This document shows, piece after piece, positions 2,049 through 42,492 of a stretch of 42,492 bases of DNA. The notes beneath the pieces are model-generated. The model was given only the letters and a program-made list of their open reading frames with translations. It was not told the DNA's origin and did no database searches. Position numbers and translations under genes: made by a program. The first letter of the stretch is position 1, and each line of letters opens with the position of its first letter. This stretch comes from a virus: the IMG/VR virus record IMGVR_UViG_3300034146_000013, positions 1 through 42,492 of that record. One strand, given 5' to 3'.

Positions 2049-5000
2049 CTGTCACGATCGTATTCGGCAAGACATCGGACGGGTACCTCTACTCGTACGA
2101 TGCCTCGCAGACAAACGCGCGGAATGGGCCGGCGGACGGCGTTGCCGGCGGGAACGCTGCGTTCGTCGGCCGGAATAACAACGATGGACAGTTCGCCGCG
2201 TTCCTCGGATATGTCGGGTACGACTACCCGGCGATTCCCGCAACCGACGTGGTCACCGCTGCGGCCGTGCGTCTCTACGTGGCGAACCTCCTTTCCCCGT
2301 CTTTCGCACAGGATCTCGTGTGGCGTGGCTTCGCGTGGTCCGGCTCCGGCCTTCAAGTCGCGGACTGGCGAAACCCGACGCAGATTGCGGCGCTCCGGAA
2401 CGACGGTCTCGTCCACATCCTCTCCGGCGCGAAGGCGCAATTCGTTCAGGCTTCCTCGGACGAGTTGCTCGCGGCGATGCGGCCGGCAACGTCAATGGAG
2501 CATCTCGTCCACACGAGTAACAACCTCGCGGGAGCGTCTCCGACGCGGGACGAAGCCATCGCCTTTTCGACGGCCGACGAAGCGGGGACGACGTTCGATC
2601 CGCAGATGGTTTACACGAGTGTTCCCCGCTCGACGCTCTTCGGGGTTCTCGGCGCACAGGTGGAACTCTCCGACGGGTGGGCATGGCTCGAATCCAACGG
2701 AGCCGCTACGCCGACGATCAATCTCAAATACCGTCCCTTCGGCTCCGCCACCGTGACCACGATCGGCGCGATTCCCGTCGGCACGGCCGTGAATCAGTTC
2801 GCCGTTCCCGGCGGGTATCAGGCACTCGCGCTCGTTGCCGATCCCGCCGGCAACCTCGCCGTTCTCGGTTGCTACTCGCAAGCGGAGAACTCGCTCGCGA
2901 TCCTGCCGTTTCAGCGCGGATCCGGTACGACGTGGACCGTGAAGCCGATGCGCTCAACGGCGATGCCGACGTACGGCGCGGCGATCAATCAGGTTGTGGC
3001 GACGTGGCACCCGTACGGCTCCGGCTCGATCGTCGCGTTCGTGGGTCATCTAGGATCGGCCGGCGACTCCGTCGCGCACAACGAGACACAACACGCGATC
3101 TTCGACTTCGCTCCGCTTCTCGCGAACACGGGAAACGGACTTCGCGGCTCCGGCTATTCGCTGCCCGCTCTTGGGTACACGGTTCCACATTCGGACTACT
3201 TCAACGGATGGCACAACGAGACCGGCAACGGGATGGATCTCGCGTCCCCGTCGCAACAAGGCGGGAGCGCGGATCAGGCGTACTTTGCTTCCTTCGGCGG
3301 GGATCAGAATCTCGGAGACAACAAGCGCATTCATGAGGGTTGGTACATCATGAATGGAACGTCTACGGGTTTTCAGTGGACGAAGCTACAGGAGATCGGT
3401 TCGTACGCCCGGAAGGATGCCGGCGGTAAGGTCCGCGTCGTTCCCGTTTCCTCGCAAGCTGCCGCGTTCATCACGACCGACAGCGATGCGGGATGGGGAA
3501 TGACGGTTCGCGTTCGGAACCACACGGGGACGGACTCGACGTCGATCGGCTCCTTCATTTACGGTGACGACATCCCGTCTCTGAATGATGGTCCCGCGCT
3601 CGCGCAGTCCCCGGCATGGGATGCCGTTTACAACGAGATCGAGAACAAACTCCACATCTACTACGTCGATAAGAACGATGCCGGCCGCGTCCGTCGTACC
3701 GCGATCGATCTAACCACAATGGGCCGGACGATGACGGAAACGCTCGTGTACGACGATGCGGGAGCCGGAGTCGTTCAGGCCATCCGCGTTCAGCGGAACG
3801 CCGGAGTTGGGCAGACAACGCTAGTCTCCATCGCGATCAACACGGCCGGCGTTCTCTCCACTCAGTACGTCGTGGACACGTTCAACATCGCGCCGACTGC
3901 TCCGACACTCGTCACGCGGGCGAACTTCGACGCGTCCACGGCCGCGAACTTCGATTGGGATTTCAACGATCCCAACGGGGATGCGCAGTACGCATACCAA
4001 CTCGAAATCTCGAACGTCGCAACGGGAGTCGTGGTTCTCGACACGGGGAAGACGGTCTCCGCCACCTCGAACCGAACCGTCGCCGGCAACACGATCCCGA
4101 ACGGCGCGGATTACCGTTGGCGCGTCAAGACGTGGGATCCGTCCGACGTCGAGTCTCCGTGGTCCGGGTACGGCACCTTCACCACGTCGGCCGGCGGAAC
4201 CGTCACGATCACCACGCCGGCAACCGATAACCCGCTGAACGTCATCACGGACGATCTCCCGATCGCGTGGAATGTCTCCGGCACGGTTCAGGCCGCTTAC
4301 CGGGTGTGGCTCTACCGTGGCGCGACTCTCGTCTCCGATACGAATTGGATCGCGTCCACGGCGACCACGGCGACGGTTGCGGGGATGCTCTCGGATCAGG
4401 CACACGAGATCCGCGTTCAGGTTCGCAACGCTTCGGCCGTAGTGACGAACACGGCTTCCCGATTCCTCACGCCGTCGTACTCCATCCCGGAGAAGCCTCT
4501 CGTCTCGATTCAGTCGAACCCGGAAGACGGGTACGTTCTCATTGCCGTTGACAACCCTTCTCCCGGCGCTCCTGCTCTCGGCGTTCCGGAGGAGGGATTC
4601 GAGACCGGCGTGGACGGGTGGACTCCGGGACCGAACGCGGCCGTTTCGCACGAGGTGACGGAGGTTCATCGGGGAGTCGGCGCGCTCCGGATCACGTCGA
4701 ACCTGAACGGGCAGGATCCCGTGTACGCGCGTAAGTACGGATCGCAAGTGGACGTGATCCCCGGCAACCGGTACACAACGCGCATGTGGGTTTGGGCATC
4801 GATCGCGTGCAACATCTCCGCCACGATCGATTGGTCGAACTCCGTCTTCACGTACCTTTCCTCTTCCTCGTTCGGGACGCTCGTTTCCGCGCAGCAATGG
4901 ACGATGATTCAGGGAACGGGTACCGCTCCCGTGGGAGCAGCGAAGGCAGTCTTCGGGCCGTCGGTCTCCGGCGGAGTGGCGGCCGGAACGTATATCATCG

Positions 5001-10118: not shown

Positions 10119-10161
10119 CACTGAACGGCCCGGAGCTTTACGCTCACCGGGCCGTTCAGTG
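10119..10161. terminator. 15-bp hairpin ending the late operon
   Basis: Perfect stem of 15 bp (arms 10119-10133 and 10147-10161, core AACGGCCCGG) with a 13-nt loop. It can act on both strands; no clean U-run follows on +, while on - a T-rich stretch follows. The same core is reused in hairpins at 16065 and 24713. Confidence 0.8.
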
Positions 10162-16050: not shown

Positions 16051-16064
16051 CGCACGGCACAGCG

Positions 16065-16095
16065 AACGGCCCGGAGAGCGTCTCTCCGGGCCGTT
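16065..16095. terminator. 13-bp hairpin after the FtsK-like gene
   Basis: Perfect stem AACGGCCCGGAGA against TCTCCGGGCCGTT with a 5-nt loop, 14 bp past the stop codon, then CTGTTACT. The remaining gap to the leftward gene at 16173 holds a degenerate regulon repeat (16098-16117) and a small 7-bp hairpin (16139-16155). Confidence 0.85.
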
Positions 16096-16172
16096 CTGTT
16101 ACTAGGAAGTGAGGAGGGAGGGTGGCTACCTCTACGCGCGTAAGCAGGGCTTACGGCCTCCCGCGAGGTACC

Positions 16173-17308: not shown

Positions 17309-17343
17309 TTGATAGGTCCCTTCTCGTTGGCTTCTGAGAAGAG

Positions 17344-17363
17344 CTTACCACGAACTTAGTAAG
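17344..17363 (-). promoter_or_regulatory. operator/promoter element h
   Basis: On the - strand CTTACTAAGTTCGTGGTAAG continues into CT, giving TAAGCT, identical to element i over all 20 bp. About 33 nt of leader with a ribosome site precede the DUF2637 gene start at 17308. Confidence 0.75.
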
Positions 17364-17375
17364 AGACGGAAGAGC

Positions 17376-18288: not shown

Positions 18289-18515
18289 TCGTCCTCCAAT
18301 GCCTCATCGATGATCCGGTCCACCTTCTTCTGTGCGACCTCCACGCGCCACACGATCACGATCATGATCCCGAACACGATGACCGTCCGGAGCGGGTTTT
18401 CCGCAAGAACCGCGTAAATCTGAACGATCGCGTTCAGGATCCACGCTCCCGCGCTCTCCGCAACCTCGATGATCCGTGCCGGTAGAGAGGCAATGAATCC
18501 GTAAATGTTTTCCAT
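18285..18515 (-). CDS. small single-helix membrane protein
   Basis: 76 residues from ATG 18515. An amphipathic N-terminal region (GFIASLPARIIEVAESAG) is followed by a strong membrane helix (LRTVIVFGIMIVIVW) and a charged tail (AQKKVDRIIDEALEDE). The -10 TAAGCT of element i ends 6 nt before the ATG and there is no ribosome site, so translation should be leaderless. Unknown function. Confidence 0.75.
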   Translation of the reverse strand: MENIYGFIASLPARIIEVAESAGAWILNAIVQIYAVLAENPLRTVIVFGIMIVIVWRVEVAQKKVDRIIDEALEDE

Positions 18516-18523
18516 GAGAAGAG

Positions 18524-18543
18524 CTTACCACGAACTTAGTAAG
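18524..18543 (-). promoter_or_regulatory. operator/promoter element i (leaderless)
   Basis: On the - strand CTTACTAAGTTCGTGGTAAG then CT (TAAGCT), 6 nt, ATG 18515. The 20-bp site is identical to element h. A weak -35 (TTCCGT) lies 18 bp upstream of the -10. Confidence 0.8.
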
Positions 18544-18551
18544 ACACGGAA

Positions 18552-18581
18552 GAGCCGCGCCAAAGAATCTCGACGCGGCTC
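18552..18581 (-). terminator. hairpin after DUF1353 gene
   Basis: Arms GAGCCGCG and CGCGGCTC with a 14-nt loop, located 7 bp past the stop of the leftward DUF1353 gene and directly upstream of promoter i. Outer ACGGA/CCGT bases can extend the stem with a bulge. Confidence 0.65.
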
Positions 18582-24761: not shown

Positions 24762-27164
24762 ATGGAACAGGTTACCACGGGGAGCGGACGTTACGCGCCC
24801 AATCTGCCGGGACAGGATCTCGAACTCAATCCGGAACATCGGCGCGAACTGATCCGAGACTCCGCGATCGACGTCGAGGTGATCCGGGAGCGCGGGTACA
24901 AGACAATGAGCCGGCCGGAGAAGTCCGGCGGAGGCATCTACTACGAGCGCGGATACCGCATGGTCAACGGGACCGTGCGCGACTTCCTCTCCGCTCTCGG
25001 CTTCCCGTCATGGGCAATTCGGGAGGACTACTTCTATCCGGGTCTGTGGATCCCGCAGTACACGCCGCGCGGGCAGCGGTACGCGGGACAGTTCAAGCCG
25101 AAACTCCCGGTTGCCAACCGGGACGGTAAGCGGATGAAGTACGCCTCCGCGAAGGGCAACGCCGTCCGGCTCGACGTGCATCCGCGATGGACGCGCGATC
25201 GTGGGCAGGAAGACGCGGCGCTCCTCCCGTGGATCAACACGGTTGACCGGCGGTTGTGGATCACGGAAGGCGTGAAGAAGGCGGACTCGCTCACGTCCCG
25301 CGACGAAGTGACGATCGCGCTCTCCGGCGTGTTCAATTGGCGAAACACTCACGGCACGTTGGGCGATTGGGAAGACGTCACGCTCAAAGGTCGCGAGATC
25401 ATCATCTGCTTCGACGCGGACGCGATCACGAAGACACAAGTCGCGCAAGCTATGGCGCGTCTCGGAAAGTGGCTCAAACACAAGGGAGCCGCGAAGGTTC
25501 ATTACTGCGTGGTTCCGGGTGAGGTGAACGGAGCCGGCGTGAAGGGAGTCGATGACTTCTTCGCTGCCGGCGGATCGATCAAGGAACTCGAACGCGCCTT
25601 CTCCCCGAAGCCTCCCCGCGTGGCGGACACGGAGGACAAGTTCACGGACGCGCGTCTCGCGGAGGTTCTCGCGGTCGAAGTTCTCGACGGCGCGTTCTGT
25701 TGGGCGGCCGGTCTCGATTGGTTGCAGTACGACGGCCGAAAGTGGCAAGAGGTTCACGAAGTCACGGTTCTCGAAGCCGTGCGACAGTGGGCCGTGGATC
25801 ACTTCGCCGCTGCGGCCGATCGGCTCCGCAACAAGGATGACGCGTCCGCTGCGGCCGATGTGGACGGATGGCGGGGGCTGCTCTCGAAGAACCGGGCGAA
25901 CTCCGTTCTCGCGTTCGCACGCGGCATCGTGGAGAAGCAGGCCGGCGACTTCGACGCGGACCCGGATCTCCTGAACATGCCGAACGGAGTCTTCAACTTC
26001 ACCACGGGGGAGTTGATGCACCATTCTTCGGAGTTCCTGTTCACGAAGATCACATCCGGTTCGTACCGGCCCGGATACACGCATCCCGATTGGGATCGCG
26101 CGCTCGAAGTGCTGCCGGCCGACGTGATGGAGTGGTTCCGCGTCCGGGTCGGACAAGCCATCACGGGACACACGACTCCGGACGGAGTCGTACCGATCAT
26201 GAAGGGTGGCGGGGAGAACGGTAAGGGTCTCCTCATGACGGACGGCATCCTCCCCGCGTTCGGCAACTACGCCGCTCCCGCGTCCTCGAAGCTCTTCGCG
26301 TCCGCGAAGAACGAGCACTCGACGGAACGCGCGGAACTCCGGGGACAGCGTCTCGTGATCGCGGAGGAGTTGACCGAAGGCCGCTCGATCGACGTAACCG
26401 CGTTGAAGCAGATTGCGGACGTCGGAGAGATCACGGCGCGGCGGACGCATCGCGATAACATGCGGTTCATCTGTTCACATTCGCTCTTCGCTACGACGAA
26501 CTACACGCCGGTAATCTCCGAGACGGATCATGGAACGTGGCGACGTCTCGCGCTCGTGATCTTCCCGTACACCTTCGTCAAGCCGGGACAACCGATCATC
26601 GACCCGGACAACGAGCGTCGCGGAGATCCGACGTTGAAGGCGCGGATCAAGGCGGGACGCGGCGGACAGCACGATGCAGCGGTGACGTGGGCGATCGAAG
26701 GCGCGCTTCTGTGGTACGCGAACATGCGCGCGATCGAAGCTGCCGTGGAGGCCGGCGAAGAGGCTCCTCCGTCCGTGATGCTGCCTCCCGCGAAGGTCCA
26801 GGCGGACACGCTCGCGTGGCGCAAGGAGGCGGACAGGATCCTCGGATTCTGGGAGGAGAAGCTCGTTCCGGATCCGACGTCCATCGTTCTCGCGTCCGAC
26901 GTCACGGATCACTTCAACGAGTGGCTAGGAGCCGGCGGACATTCACCGTGGGCGAAGGAGACCTTCGGTCCCCGCTTCAAAGATCACGCCGAGACGAAGC
27001 GTCACCGCGCGGCCTTCACGCCACGGAAGAGGCTCGCGTCCGTCATGGGGCATGTGGTCCGGCGGCCGTCCGCGCACGCGTTCCCCGGCGCGGAGAAGCC
27101 GATTCCGAAGCAGGCGGACGCGTGGCAAGGGTTCCGGTTCCGCACAGACGCGGACGACGTCTGA
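24762..27164 (+). CDS. P4/D5-type primase-helicase
   Basis: 800 residues from ATG 24762, AAGGA 5 nt upstream. The N-terminal half contains a Toprim-like DUF3854-type domain: LWITEGVKKADSL at about 164-177 and REIIICFDADA at about 210-220. The C-terminal half is the D5/P4 superfamily 3 helicase: Walker A MKGGGENGKGLLM at about 480-492, Walker B LVIAEELTEG at about 529-538, sensor SLFATTNYTPV at about 572-582, followed by the WRRLALVIFPYTFV strand. Such proteins prime and unwind at a dedicated origin, as phage P4 alpha does. No DNA polymerase is encoded, so host polymerase III is the likely partner. It ends 18 bp before the 90-bp inverted-repeat element. Confidence 0.9.
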   Translation: MEQVTTGSGRYAPNLPGQDLELNPEHRRELIRDSAIDVEVIRERGYKTMSRPEKSGGGIYYERGYRMVNGTVRDFLSALGFPSWAIREDYFYPGLWIPQYTPRGQRYAGQFKPKLPVANRDGKRMKYASAKGNAVRLDVHPRWTRDRGQEDAALLPWINTVDRRLWITEGVKKADSLTSRDEVTIALSGVFNWRNTHGTLGDWEDVTLKGREIIICFDADAITKTQVAQAMARLGKWLKHKGAAKVHYCVVPGEVNGAGVKGVDDFFAAGGSIKELERAFSPKPPRVADTEDKFTDARLAEVLAVEVLDGAFCWAAGLDWLQYDGRKWQEVHEVTVLEAVRQWAVDHFAAAADRLRNKDDASAAADVDGWRGLLSKNRANSVLAFARGIVEKQAGDFDADPDLLNMPNGVFNFTTGELMHHSSEFLFTKITSGSYRPGYTHPDWDRALEVLPADVMEWFRVRVGQAITGHTTPDGVVPIMKGGGENGKGLLMTDGILPAFGNYAAPASSKLFASAKNEHSTERAELRGQRLVIAEELTEGRSIDVTALKQIADVGEITARRTHRDNMRFICSHSLFATTNYTPVISETDHGTWRRLALVIFPYTFVKPGQPIIDPDNERRGDPTLKARIKAGRGGQHDAAVTWAIEGALLWYANMRAIEAAVEAGEEAPPSVMLPPAKVQADTLAWRKEADRILGFWEEKLVPDPTSIVLASDVTDHFNEWLGAGGHSPWAKETFGPRFKDHAETKRHRAAFTPRKRLASVMGHVVRRPSAHAFPGAEKPIPKQADAWQGFRFRTDADDV

Positions 27165-27182
27165 GCTGCGGAAACGCGGTAG

Positions 27183-27272
27183 GGTGTGACCTGTGTGAGT
27201 ACCTTTGGGAAAATCTCTAAAACAACACACACATAGGGAGATTTTCCGGAGGGTACTCACACGGGTCACACC
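27183..27272. repeat. 90-bp inverted-repeat element, copy 1
   Basis: Left arm 27183-27219, 14-nt loop, right arm 27234-27272. The arms contain GGTGTGACCTGTGTGAGTAC and GGGAAAATCTC with near-complete reverse complements. GTGTGA occurs twice in each arm, 9 bp apart. A second copy of identical length lies at 41136-41225. It sits right after the primase-helicase stop codon. Confidence 0.9.
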
Positions 27273-27283
27273 CCCTCCCGAAG

Positions 27284-40420: not shown

Positions 40421-40567
40421 ATGCGAACCATCGTGACGACGATCCGCCCGGACGAGACGATCGACGTCGAGGAAGACGAGTTCCTCGATCTGCAACGGCA
40501 AAACCTCATCAAGGAAGACAAGACGCCGGGAACGGCGAAGGCGAAGAAGGAGACCCCGAATGCCTAG
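40421..40567 (+). CDS. small hypothetical protein
   Basis: 48 residues from ATG 40421, AAGGAG 5 nt upstream, overlapping the major tail gene by 8 nt. It begins MRTIVTTIRPDETIDVEEDE and has FLDLQRQNLIKEDKTPG and a Lys-rich end. Found at this position in many siphophages as a short unknown. No function assigned. Confidence 0.75.
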   Translation: MRTIVTTIRPDETIDVEEDEFLDLQRQNLIKEDKTPGTAKAKKETPNA

Positions 40568-41135
40568 CGCATCGAACATCATCGCCGGGCCGGCGGAACT
40601 CTTCCGCGCGGACTTCGGCGCGACGGAGCCGCTCGACACGGCGGTAACCGATCCGATCGGAGCGCCGTTCGCTTCGCTGGGAGGCACGGACGACGGCGTA
40701 ACGCTGAACGTCTCCCACGAGTGGATGAACCTCCGCATGGATCAGATCATCGACTCCGCCGGCAAGCGCAAGACGGGTCGGACGATCACCGTCGCGACGA
40801 ACCTTGTCGAAGGCACGTTGGAGAACCTCCTTCTCGCCATCGCGCAGAGTGCCGACTCCATCGACACGGGCGGGACCGGCGGTACCGCGTGGCGTGGCTT
40901 CGAGGTGGAGGGGGACGACTCCGGCGAGGAACCGGAGTATTCGTCCATCATCCTCCGGGGACGTGCTCCCGGCGGGAAGCGTCGCCTCTTCATCCTCCGG
41001 AAGGCGTTGCAGGTGGAGGACGTCGAGAGCGCGTACAAGAAGGATGACCAGTGGCTCATTCCGGTCACGTTCGAGTGTCATTGGGTCTCGACGTCGATCC
41101 GCCCCTTCCGGGTCGTGGAGAGCGCCGCAGCCTAG
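40560..41135 (+). CDS. major tail protein
   Basis: 191 residues from ATG 40560. Pattern GPAELFRADFGATEPLDTAV, GGTDDGVTLNVSHEWMNLRM, then GRTITVATNLVEGTLENLLL and PGGKRRLFILRKALQVEDV with KKDDQWLIPVTFECHWV, typical of siphophage tail-tube proteins (beta-sandwich, LxxLLLAI helix). Placed after the terminator and before the frameshifted chaperones. Its stop codon TAG is shared with the start of the second inverted-repeat element. Confidence 0.9.
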   Translation: MPSASNIIAGPAELFRADFGATEPLDTAVTDPIGAPFASLGGTDDGVTLNVSHEWMNLRMDQIIDSAGKRKTGRTITVATNLVEGTLENLLLAIAQSADSIDTGGTGGTAWRGFEVEGDDSGEEPEYSSIILRGRAPGGKRRLFILRKALQVEDVESAYKKDDQWLIPVTFECHWVSTSIRPFRVVESAAA

Positions 41136-41225
41136 GGTGTGACCCGTGTGAGTACCTTCGGGAAAATCTCTATACACGGAAGCTCTTAGGGAGATTTTCC
41201 TAGGGGTACTCACACAGGTCACACC
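41136..41225. repeat. 90-bp inverted-repeat element, copy 2
   Basis: Left arm from 41136 to 41172, 14-nt loop, right arm 41187-41225. Arm sequences are nearly those of copy 1 (27183-27272); loop sequences are unrelated. It directly follows the major tail gene stop and leaves 36 bp to the chaperone start, where AGAGGAGG supplies the ribosome site. Confidence 0.9.
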
Positions 41226-41261: not shown

Positions 41262-41567
41262 ATGTTCAAGATCGACACTTCCGCTCTCCCGCAGTCCACG
41301 AAGCGCGAACCGCTCTTCGAGATCGACGGCACGGAGTACACGATCCCCGTCAGTCTCGGCGGGGAGATCGGGCTCCGCGCGACACGCATCGTGGAGGAGA
41401 AGGGAGAACTCGCGGGAGAACTGTTCGTCATCGATCAGACGATCGGTCGCGAGGCATACGACGCGCTGTGCGCCGTGGAGAACCTCCCGAAGAGCGTTCT
41501 CGCGGGGATCATGTCCGTTTGCCGGGAGAAGGTGTTCGGCGGGATGGAGCAGGAGGGAAAAGGCTAA
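41262..41567 (+). CDS. tail assembly chaperone, short form
   Basis: 101 residues from ATG 41262 with GAGGAGG upstream. Contains FEIDGTEYTIPVSLGGEIGL, then LFVIDQTIGREAYDALCAVE. The frame ends in TAA right after the slippery GGGAAAA. In siphophages the short protein coats the tape measure with the longer frameshift product. Order (major tail protein, this gene, tape measure) makes the call firm. Confidence 0.9.
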   Translation: MFKIDTSALPQSTKREPLFEIDGTEYTIPVSLGGEIGLRATRIVEEKGELAGELFVIDQTIGREAYDALCAVENLPKSVLAGIMSVCREKVFGGMEQEGKG

Positions 41568-41867: not shown

Positions 41868-42492
41868 ATGGCGGACGGTTTCAAGATCGCAGACGCGTAC
41901 GTCGCGGTTCTCGCAGACATTGACGAACGTGCGATCACATCGTCCGCCATCACGGCCGGCGACACGGCCGGCTCCGTCATGGGGCAGCGGACCACATCGG
42001 GATTCACGAAGCGGCTCCGGGACGAGAACGGGAAGTTTGTCTCCGCCGGCCGCATCTCCGGCGAAGGAGTCGGCAAGGGAGCCGGCGACGGCATCGGGGA
42101 CGGCGCAACCGGGAAGCGTGGCCTTCTCGGCAAAATCGGCGGGATGCTCGGCGGAGCCGGCGGTCTCGCGGGTGGCGTGATGTCCGGCGTTGCCGGCATG
42201 GGTCAAAAGCTCGGCGGGATGCTGCCGGCCGTCATGACGAACCCGTACGCGCTCGCGGCTGTTGCTGCGGCCGGCGCGACGCTCGCTCCCGCGCTCGCGG
42301 CCGGTCTCTCCGGCGCGCTGATCGGCGGAGCCGGTCTCGGCGTTCTAGGTCTCGGCGTGATGATCGCGAAGGAGAACCCTCGCGTCCAAACCGCTGCGCG
42401 CGGTTTGGGTAACCGCTTGAAGTTGGAGTTCACGAAGGCTGTCGGTCCGCTGATCACGCCGATCGTTGAATCCCTAAAGACGATGAACAAGT
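41868..42492 (+). CDS. tape measure protein, N-terminal part
   Basis: From ATG 41868 (GGGAGTCGGG just upstream) to the window edge, 208 codons. The start is MADGFKIADAYVAVLADIDE; then a Gly/Ala-rich region with GKRGLLGKIGGMLGGAGG and hydrophobic stretches (YALAAVAAAGATLAPALAAG, LSGALIGGAGLGVLGLGVMI) typical of tape measures, then KLEFTKAVGPLITPIVESL. It continues in frame at base 1-22. The joined length (about 764) is short and predicts a tail of roughly 110-120 nm if the usual 0.15 nm per residue holds. Confidence 0.93.
   Translation, partial: MADGFKIADAYVAVLADIDERAITSSAITAGDTAGSVMGQRTTSGFTKRLRDENGKFVSAGRISGEGVGKGAGDGIGDGATGKRGLLGKIGGMLGGAGGLAGGVMSGVAGMGQKLGGMLPAVMTNPYALAAVAAAGATLAPALAAGLSGALIGGAGLGVLGLGVMIAKENPRVQTAARGLGNRLKLEFTKAVGPLITPIVESLKTMNK
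42471..42492. repeat. right end of the assembly overlap
   Basis: Twenty-one of 22 bases match positions 1-22; base 42479 is G where base 9 is C. Circle length is therefore about 42,470 bp. Confidence 0.8.

Follow-up and report, generated by a model that had tools for sequence, protein, structure and literature searches.

The 42,492-nucleotide stretch of viral DNA analysed here, referred to as the window, carries a long hairpin-forming dyad immediately past its primase-helicase gene, which we read as a replication origin of the phage with a probability of roughly 0.87, the double-stranded dyad being the putative binding site of the primase-helicase acting as initiator. The origin recognised by this protein, suggested in the first-pass annotation, is supported at the sequence level by the presence of a dyad beside every assessable homologue of the gene, and by likeness to the crr site of phage P4. 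The dyads have a common architecture and a strict association with the gene, all of the half-sites of a dyad change together, and the arrangement is independent of both strand and gene boundaries.

The dyad and its neighbouring primase-helicase

The first copy of the dyad occupies positions 27182–27273 (no strand), and begins 18 bp past the primase stop codon, which ends at 27164, exactly the distance given in the first-pass annotation. The 90-bp inverted repeat described there is real, with 32 Watson-Crick pairs, 4 G:T pairs, and 3 mismatches over 39 opposed positions, and a loop of 14–20 nt, set by where pairing is taken as ending. The left arm (27184–27198, plus strand) carries GTGTGA half-sites at 27184–27189 and 27193–27198, a period of 9 bp, and the right arm (27257–27271, minus strand) carries the inverted half-sites at 27257–27262 and 27266–27271. 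Beyond the GTGTGA pairs both arms contain GTACC, as had been claimed, followed by GGAAAATCTC. Between the arms, the core (27204–27251, no strand) contains an inner inverted repeat formed by GGAAAATCTC/GAGATTTTCC and, on the minus strand, a sequence, TCCCTATGTGTGTGTT, that weakly matches the core motif of the family. A chance origin of the hairpins of the window is excluded by their folding z-scores (−6.3 to −10.6), by their ungapped hairpin scores (24 and 20, where 20 shuffled windows reached no more than 15), and by the arm word GTGTGACCNGTGTGAGTACC, of which the window has exactly four occurrences with 0.00 expected. No match for the element was found in Rfam.

The proposed initiator, a protein of 800 aa encoded at 24762–27164 (plus strand), comprises a Toprim-like DUF3854 domain carrying EGVKK...DxD, a D5_N/SF3 helicase, and a C-terminal winged helix, with viral and SaPI5 primase-helicases as its closest solved relatives. 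The C-terminal 161 residues, modelled separately (pLDDT 88), adopt a helix-helix-strand-strand winged helix in the model, resembling the RFX DNA-binding domain with a target TM of 0.71–0.74 and a weak Foldseek E-value (0.006–0.3). The C-terminus is accordingly described here as a predicted RFX-like winged helix (residues ~701–793, coding region 26862–27140, plus strand), and is the proposed binder of the half-sites. No HUH domain is present among the Pfam or PHROGs matches of the primase-helicase, in scans covering some of the genes of the window, and a rolling-circle double-strand origin is disfavoured, the neighbouring initiator being a primase-helicase without such matches. GC skew turns near 24.5 kb, however gene direction turns at the same place, and the skew is therefore uninformative on the origin.

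Several other features of the genome were observed. The window ends (42471–42492 and 1–22) form a 22-base repeat with one mismatch, and joining them yields a single tape-measure frame of 764 aa that matches a 768-aa protein of the relative G001; from the repeat and the joined frame, the record probably represents the whole genome, assembled as a circle of about 42,470 bp. The tape-measure gene also contains four 132-bp repeats (752–1235), each encoding 44 aa. Seven CTTASTAAG palindromes lie in gene gaps (10248, 11129, 11181, 17355, 18535, 24373, and 24432), some within longer repeats (17335–17375 and 18515–18555 are 98% identical), with similar words found 3' of the first dyad and also in the relatives L006 and L011; these palindromes probably serve the phage group as operators or promoters. 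Two short hairpins at 10119–10161 and 16064–16096 have a common GAACGGCCCGG stem, also found in G001, and, in contrast to the dyads, probably act as genuine terminators in this phage.

Fixed geometry and changing words among relatives

A blind scan of 53 non-redundant primase loci, for a 6-mer repeated at period P (≤1 mismatch) and inverted (≤2 mismatches) with the partner sought 82–91 bp across, placed a dyad beside the primase homologue in 46 loci at P = 9, compared with 0–2 of the 53 at each of the remaining periods between 5 and 14, the period table being computed with separate flanks. At P = 9, shuffled sequences gave none, and the region 1.5–2.7 kb away gave 0/47. The seven loci outside the 46 consist of four with looser 9-bp dyads, one degenerate (L167), one with a 10-bp dyad (L189), and one cut by the contig end. 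The first-pass annotation had proposed asking whether the element tracks with the primase gene, and this check, now run, finds a dyad adjoining the gene in 52 of the 52 assessable homologues among the 53 relatives, with common descent of the dyad able to explain part of the association among the closest of them.

Within this set, 35 distinct arm words are held in a span of 86.5 ± 2 bp (82–91 bp), and the dyads share a CCTATACGCGAGG-like core motif between their arms (EM log-likelihood of 185 compared with about 40 in shuffles). Arm mismatches are nearly absent from the half-sites and concentrated in the 3-bp spacer, a distribution to which the selection rule partly contributes. The core motif lies about 5.5 bp toward the primase-3' side of the centre in nearly all of 52 dyads, whatever its direction. 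In the closest relative, L006/L031 (primase identity 81%), hairpins are present at both orthologous sites, with GTGTGAGCTGTGTGA replacing the GTGTGACCYGTGTGA of the window at both, and the copy beside the tail gene is also present in L005, a contig of 10 kb. More distant primases are accompanied by dyads of wholly different sequence, such as TGCAAGaggTGCAAG, GGGAGGAtaGGGAGGA, TGTACCnnnTGTACC, TAGACgggtTAGAC, and GTTACnnnnGTTAC. Searching phage records for the element at the DNA level returned nothing relevant, as the words change between clades.

The placement of the dyad relative to the gene also varies, with 11 dyads intergenic and 3' of the primase, 5 upstream, and 30 within an open primase-polymerase frame. 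In nearly all of these 30 loci the frame continues for about 2 kb, the product being a DNA polymerase where read, and RefSeq gives the fusion in the Streptomyces phage-plasmid pS1D4-14.2 as one CDS spanning the dyad. At the fused loci (L010, L155, and others), the dyad encodes a Pro/Gly-rich linker between primase-helicase and polymerase, for example VPPVPP...GGTGGT. In Streptomyces plasmids of 14, 28, and 29 kb the dyad lies 42–62 bp past the primase stop, which supports the origin reading, as plasmids must carry an origin; in a Thermaerobacter plasmid it lies upstream of the primase. Dyads of 9-bp period are also found near the primases of BPP-1, AcaML1, and mycobacteriophage Anaya, and were not found near those of OscarSo, Wyvern, FuzzBuster, TforTroy, Armstrong, Mufasa, and BcepC6B, seven annotated phages with more distant relatives of the primase, which counts against the origin reading. 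Four 90-kb phages (G005, G015, G020, and G043) contain a second, shorter relative of the D5-like primase-helicase, in an open frame of 315–458 aa.

The second copy claimed for the window is found 14 kb from the first, at 41136–41225 (no strand), and is 83% identical to it, with the same half-sites and a different core. GTGTGA again occurs twice at a 9-bp period in the left arm (41137–41151, plus strand), and twice in inverted form in the right arm (41210–41224, minus strand). This copy abuts the stop of the major tail protein gene directly upstream (40560–41135, plus strand; 191 aa), in a synteny kept in L005/L032 and L031, and is followed by a small gene starting at 41262, which is probably a tail chaperone, judging by its position.

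A second dyad with the half-sites of its own genome occurs in 18 of 41 genomes, or 19 counting G002, with one site found in the other 22. Foreign half-sites used as a control gave 9/123 matches, partly because some half-sites are related, such that single weak second copies (G008, for example) need caution. Where checked, second copies sit in structural-gene regions, with neighbouring genes that vary by clade: tail genes flank the copy in the clade of the window, and a distal tail gene precedes it in the 90-kb group. The spacing between the two copies is 0.31–0.50 of the genome in all two-copy genomes, counted round contigs that may be incomplete. Both copies of a genome share half-sites even where relatives differ, as between the window and G001, and in G002 the two cores are identical. 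The second copy of the window is probably, though less certainly than the first, a further start site used by the same protein, and the pattern of second copies fits two origins dividing the work. Two sites, as envisaged for an origin in the first-pass annotation, are present in the window and in 19/41 genomes, and an obligatory P4-like two-site mechanism is no more than a candidate, the second copy being common yet not universal.

Alternative readings of the dyad

A transcription terminator or attenuator, in which an RNA hairpin ends or tunes transcripts past the primase and the highly expressed tail gene, would account for both window copies lying just past a stop codon and in the same sense as the flanking genes, for the great stability of the RNA hairpin, and for the second copy occupying the interval between major tail gene and chaperones, at which expression is reduced in many siphophages. 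However, neither window copy has a T-tract or a terminator-like call, the dyad lies inside an open frame in 30 relatives and upstream of the primase in 5, and an RNA stem would have no use for the 9-bp repeat inside each arm. Mismatches of the G:T and A:C types are equally frequent (22 and 23), and the core motif runs with the gene in 24 cases and against it in 25, indicating no strand preference. Furthermore, a separate real terminator precedes the dyad in the S. anulatus plasmid, pRN1, and P4. An intrinsic terminator was rejected for want of a T-tract or hit and for the open frame through the dyad, an RNA-structure reading is ruled out by frame, position, and strand symmetry, and the attenuator put forward in the first-pass annotation fails on the in-frame and upstream dyads. 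Judged from these sequence features the dyad is a DNA element and not a terminator, and regulation through an RNA hairpin is highly improbable.

Even less probable is a mobile hairpin (a MITE or REP-like repeat) inserted twice, the other alternative of the first-pass annotation, which is contradicted by the fixed association with the primase gene. Whilst two copies per genome, second copies at different genes in different clades, and the identical cores of the two G002 copies, as after recent copying, are what such an element might leave, the primase-side copy is fixed by the gene in every assessable homologue despite complete sequence change, and positions are orthologous in L005, L006, and L031. 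The flanking target duplications expected of insertion are absent at the copies, as is any transposase. Both refuting tests set in the first-pass annotation, on primase homologues lacking the element and on flanking target duplications, thereby come out on the side of the origin reading. An improbable, though less remote, reading is that the primase-helicase or another phage regulator binds the dyad for autoregulation, partition, or counting and not for initiation, with the second copy especially open to a regulatory or crr-like helper role. Iterons and a shared trans factor would fit any protein that binds DNA in a sequence-specific manner, roughly half of the genomes contain a single site, and the second copies are surrounded by late genes; however, replication of pRN1 depends on its site in cis (PMC4234260, PMC3869888), the sites of phages A2 and Sfi21 are annotated origins, and P4 crr itself belongs to replication.

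Comparison with known origins and a proposed mechanism

The origin reading places the dyad among initiator-iteron origins, a known kind represented by P4 crr/ori, the PICI ori, and pRN1, and this assignment is well supported. The parallel with P4 is closer than the first-pass annotation stated. The P4 initiator likewise combines Toprim, SF3, and winged-helix domains (the winged helix of the window being a weak fold match), crr lies directly downstream of alpha, and ori forms a second, distant site. In crr, the type-1 repeats at 4314 and 4323 have a spacing of 9 bp and the inverted repeats at 4366 and 4384 one of 18 bp, such that P4, like the window, has 9-bp direct pairs beside the initiator gene on one arm and inverted partners on the other. 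P4 needs both sites, its crr consists of two 120-bp direct repeats, its ori has another layout, and its half-site is of the GGTGAACA type, whereas the second copy of the window is a full dyad like the first and many relatives have one site.

Replication of the Sulfolobus plasmid pRN1 requires a stem-loop in cis, which is also sufficient for it (PMC4234260; also PMC3869888), and the arms of this stem-loop, TGTCCAtagTGTCCA, contain TGTCCA twice at 9 bp. The authors of these studies describe an origin without iteron structure and do not report the 9-bp arm repeats (PMC4234260, PMC3869888). As in the window, a stem-loop of about 100 bp lies 3' of an SF3 primase-helicase gene and keeps its structure whilst its sequence changes, however pRN1 is an archaeal plasmid with a prim-pol in place of Toprim and a 58-nt loop.

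In PICI origins, a melting region 3' of rep is flanked by two sets of iterons, an arrangement said to be absent from other bacterial replicons (PMC6092414), with SaPI Rep and Cch2 binding iterons through the C-terminal domain (PMC7581432) and two hexamers suggested (PMC6092414, PMC7581432). The window resembles them in the two sets of short iterons flanking a proposed melting region immediately 3' of the helicase gene, although its core is not strongly AT-rich. SaPIs and PICIs are satellites, whereas the dyad described here occurs in autonomous actinobacterial phages and plasmids, can be in-frame, and can be duplicated. The window itself is not a PICI satellite, as it encodes its own terminase, portal, capsid, and tail genes. 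An annotated origin also follows the primase directly in Lactobacillus phage A2 and Streptococcus phage Sfi21, where inverted iterons surround an AT-rich core (TATACGTAGAG in A2), however iteron spacing is irregular in A2 and 8 bp in Sfi21, and both lack the compact 85–91-bp dyad.

Extrapolating from these families, initiation would begin with binding of the C-terminal winged helix of the primase-helicase to the GTGTGA half-sites, two per arm and 9 bp apart, giving one protein array per arm with the arrays facing each other. Two SF3 helicase rings, head to head, would then load flanking the conserved core and melt it, after which the Toprim primase domain would make primers, possibly from the core motif, and two forks would leave. 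We give about even odds to a broader proposal, that one architecture of inverted 9-bp-spaced half-sites, about 85–100 bp across, serves the SF3 primase-helicases of actinobacterial phages and plasmids, P4, BPP-1, and pRN1, with words that turn over with the initiator, sites that can hide in the initiator frame, and, in many phages, two work-sharing origins one third to one half of a genome apart.

No earlier description of the dyad in actinophages was found in the literature searched. New features are the compact geometry, fixed while its words turn over freely, its occurrence in autonomous phages and plasmids of actinobacteria, the in-frame placement in many of these, and the frequent second copy. 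The origins of most actinobacterial phages are unmapped, and the layout would give a simple rule to locate them beside SF3 primase-helicases, one that works although the origin sequences have nothing in common. It would also supply the recognition motif missing for the pRN1 origin, and extend beyond the PICIs a layout previously called unique to them, whilst raising the prospect of an origin within a protein-coding frame, and of paired distant origins in one phage genome.
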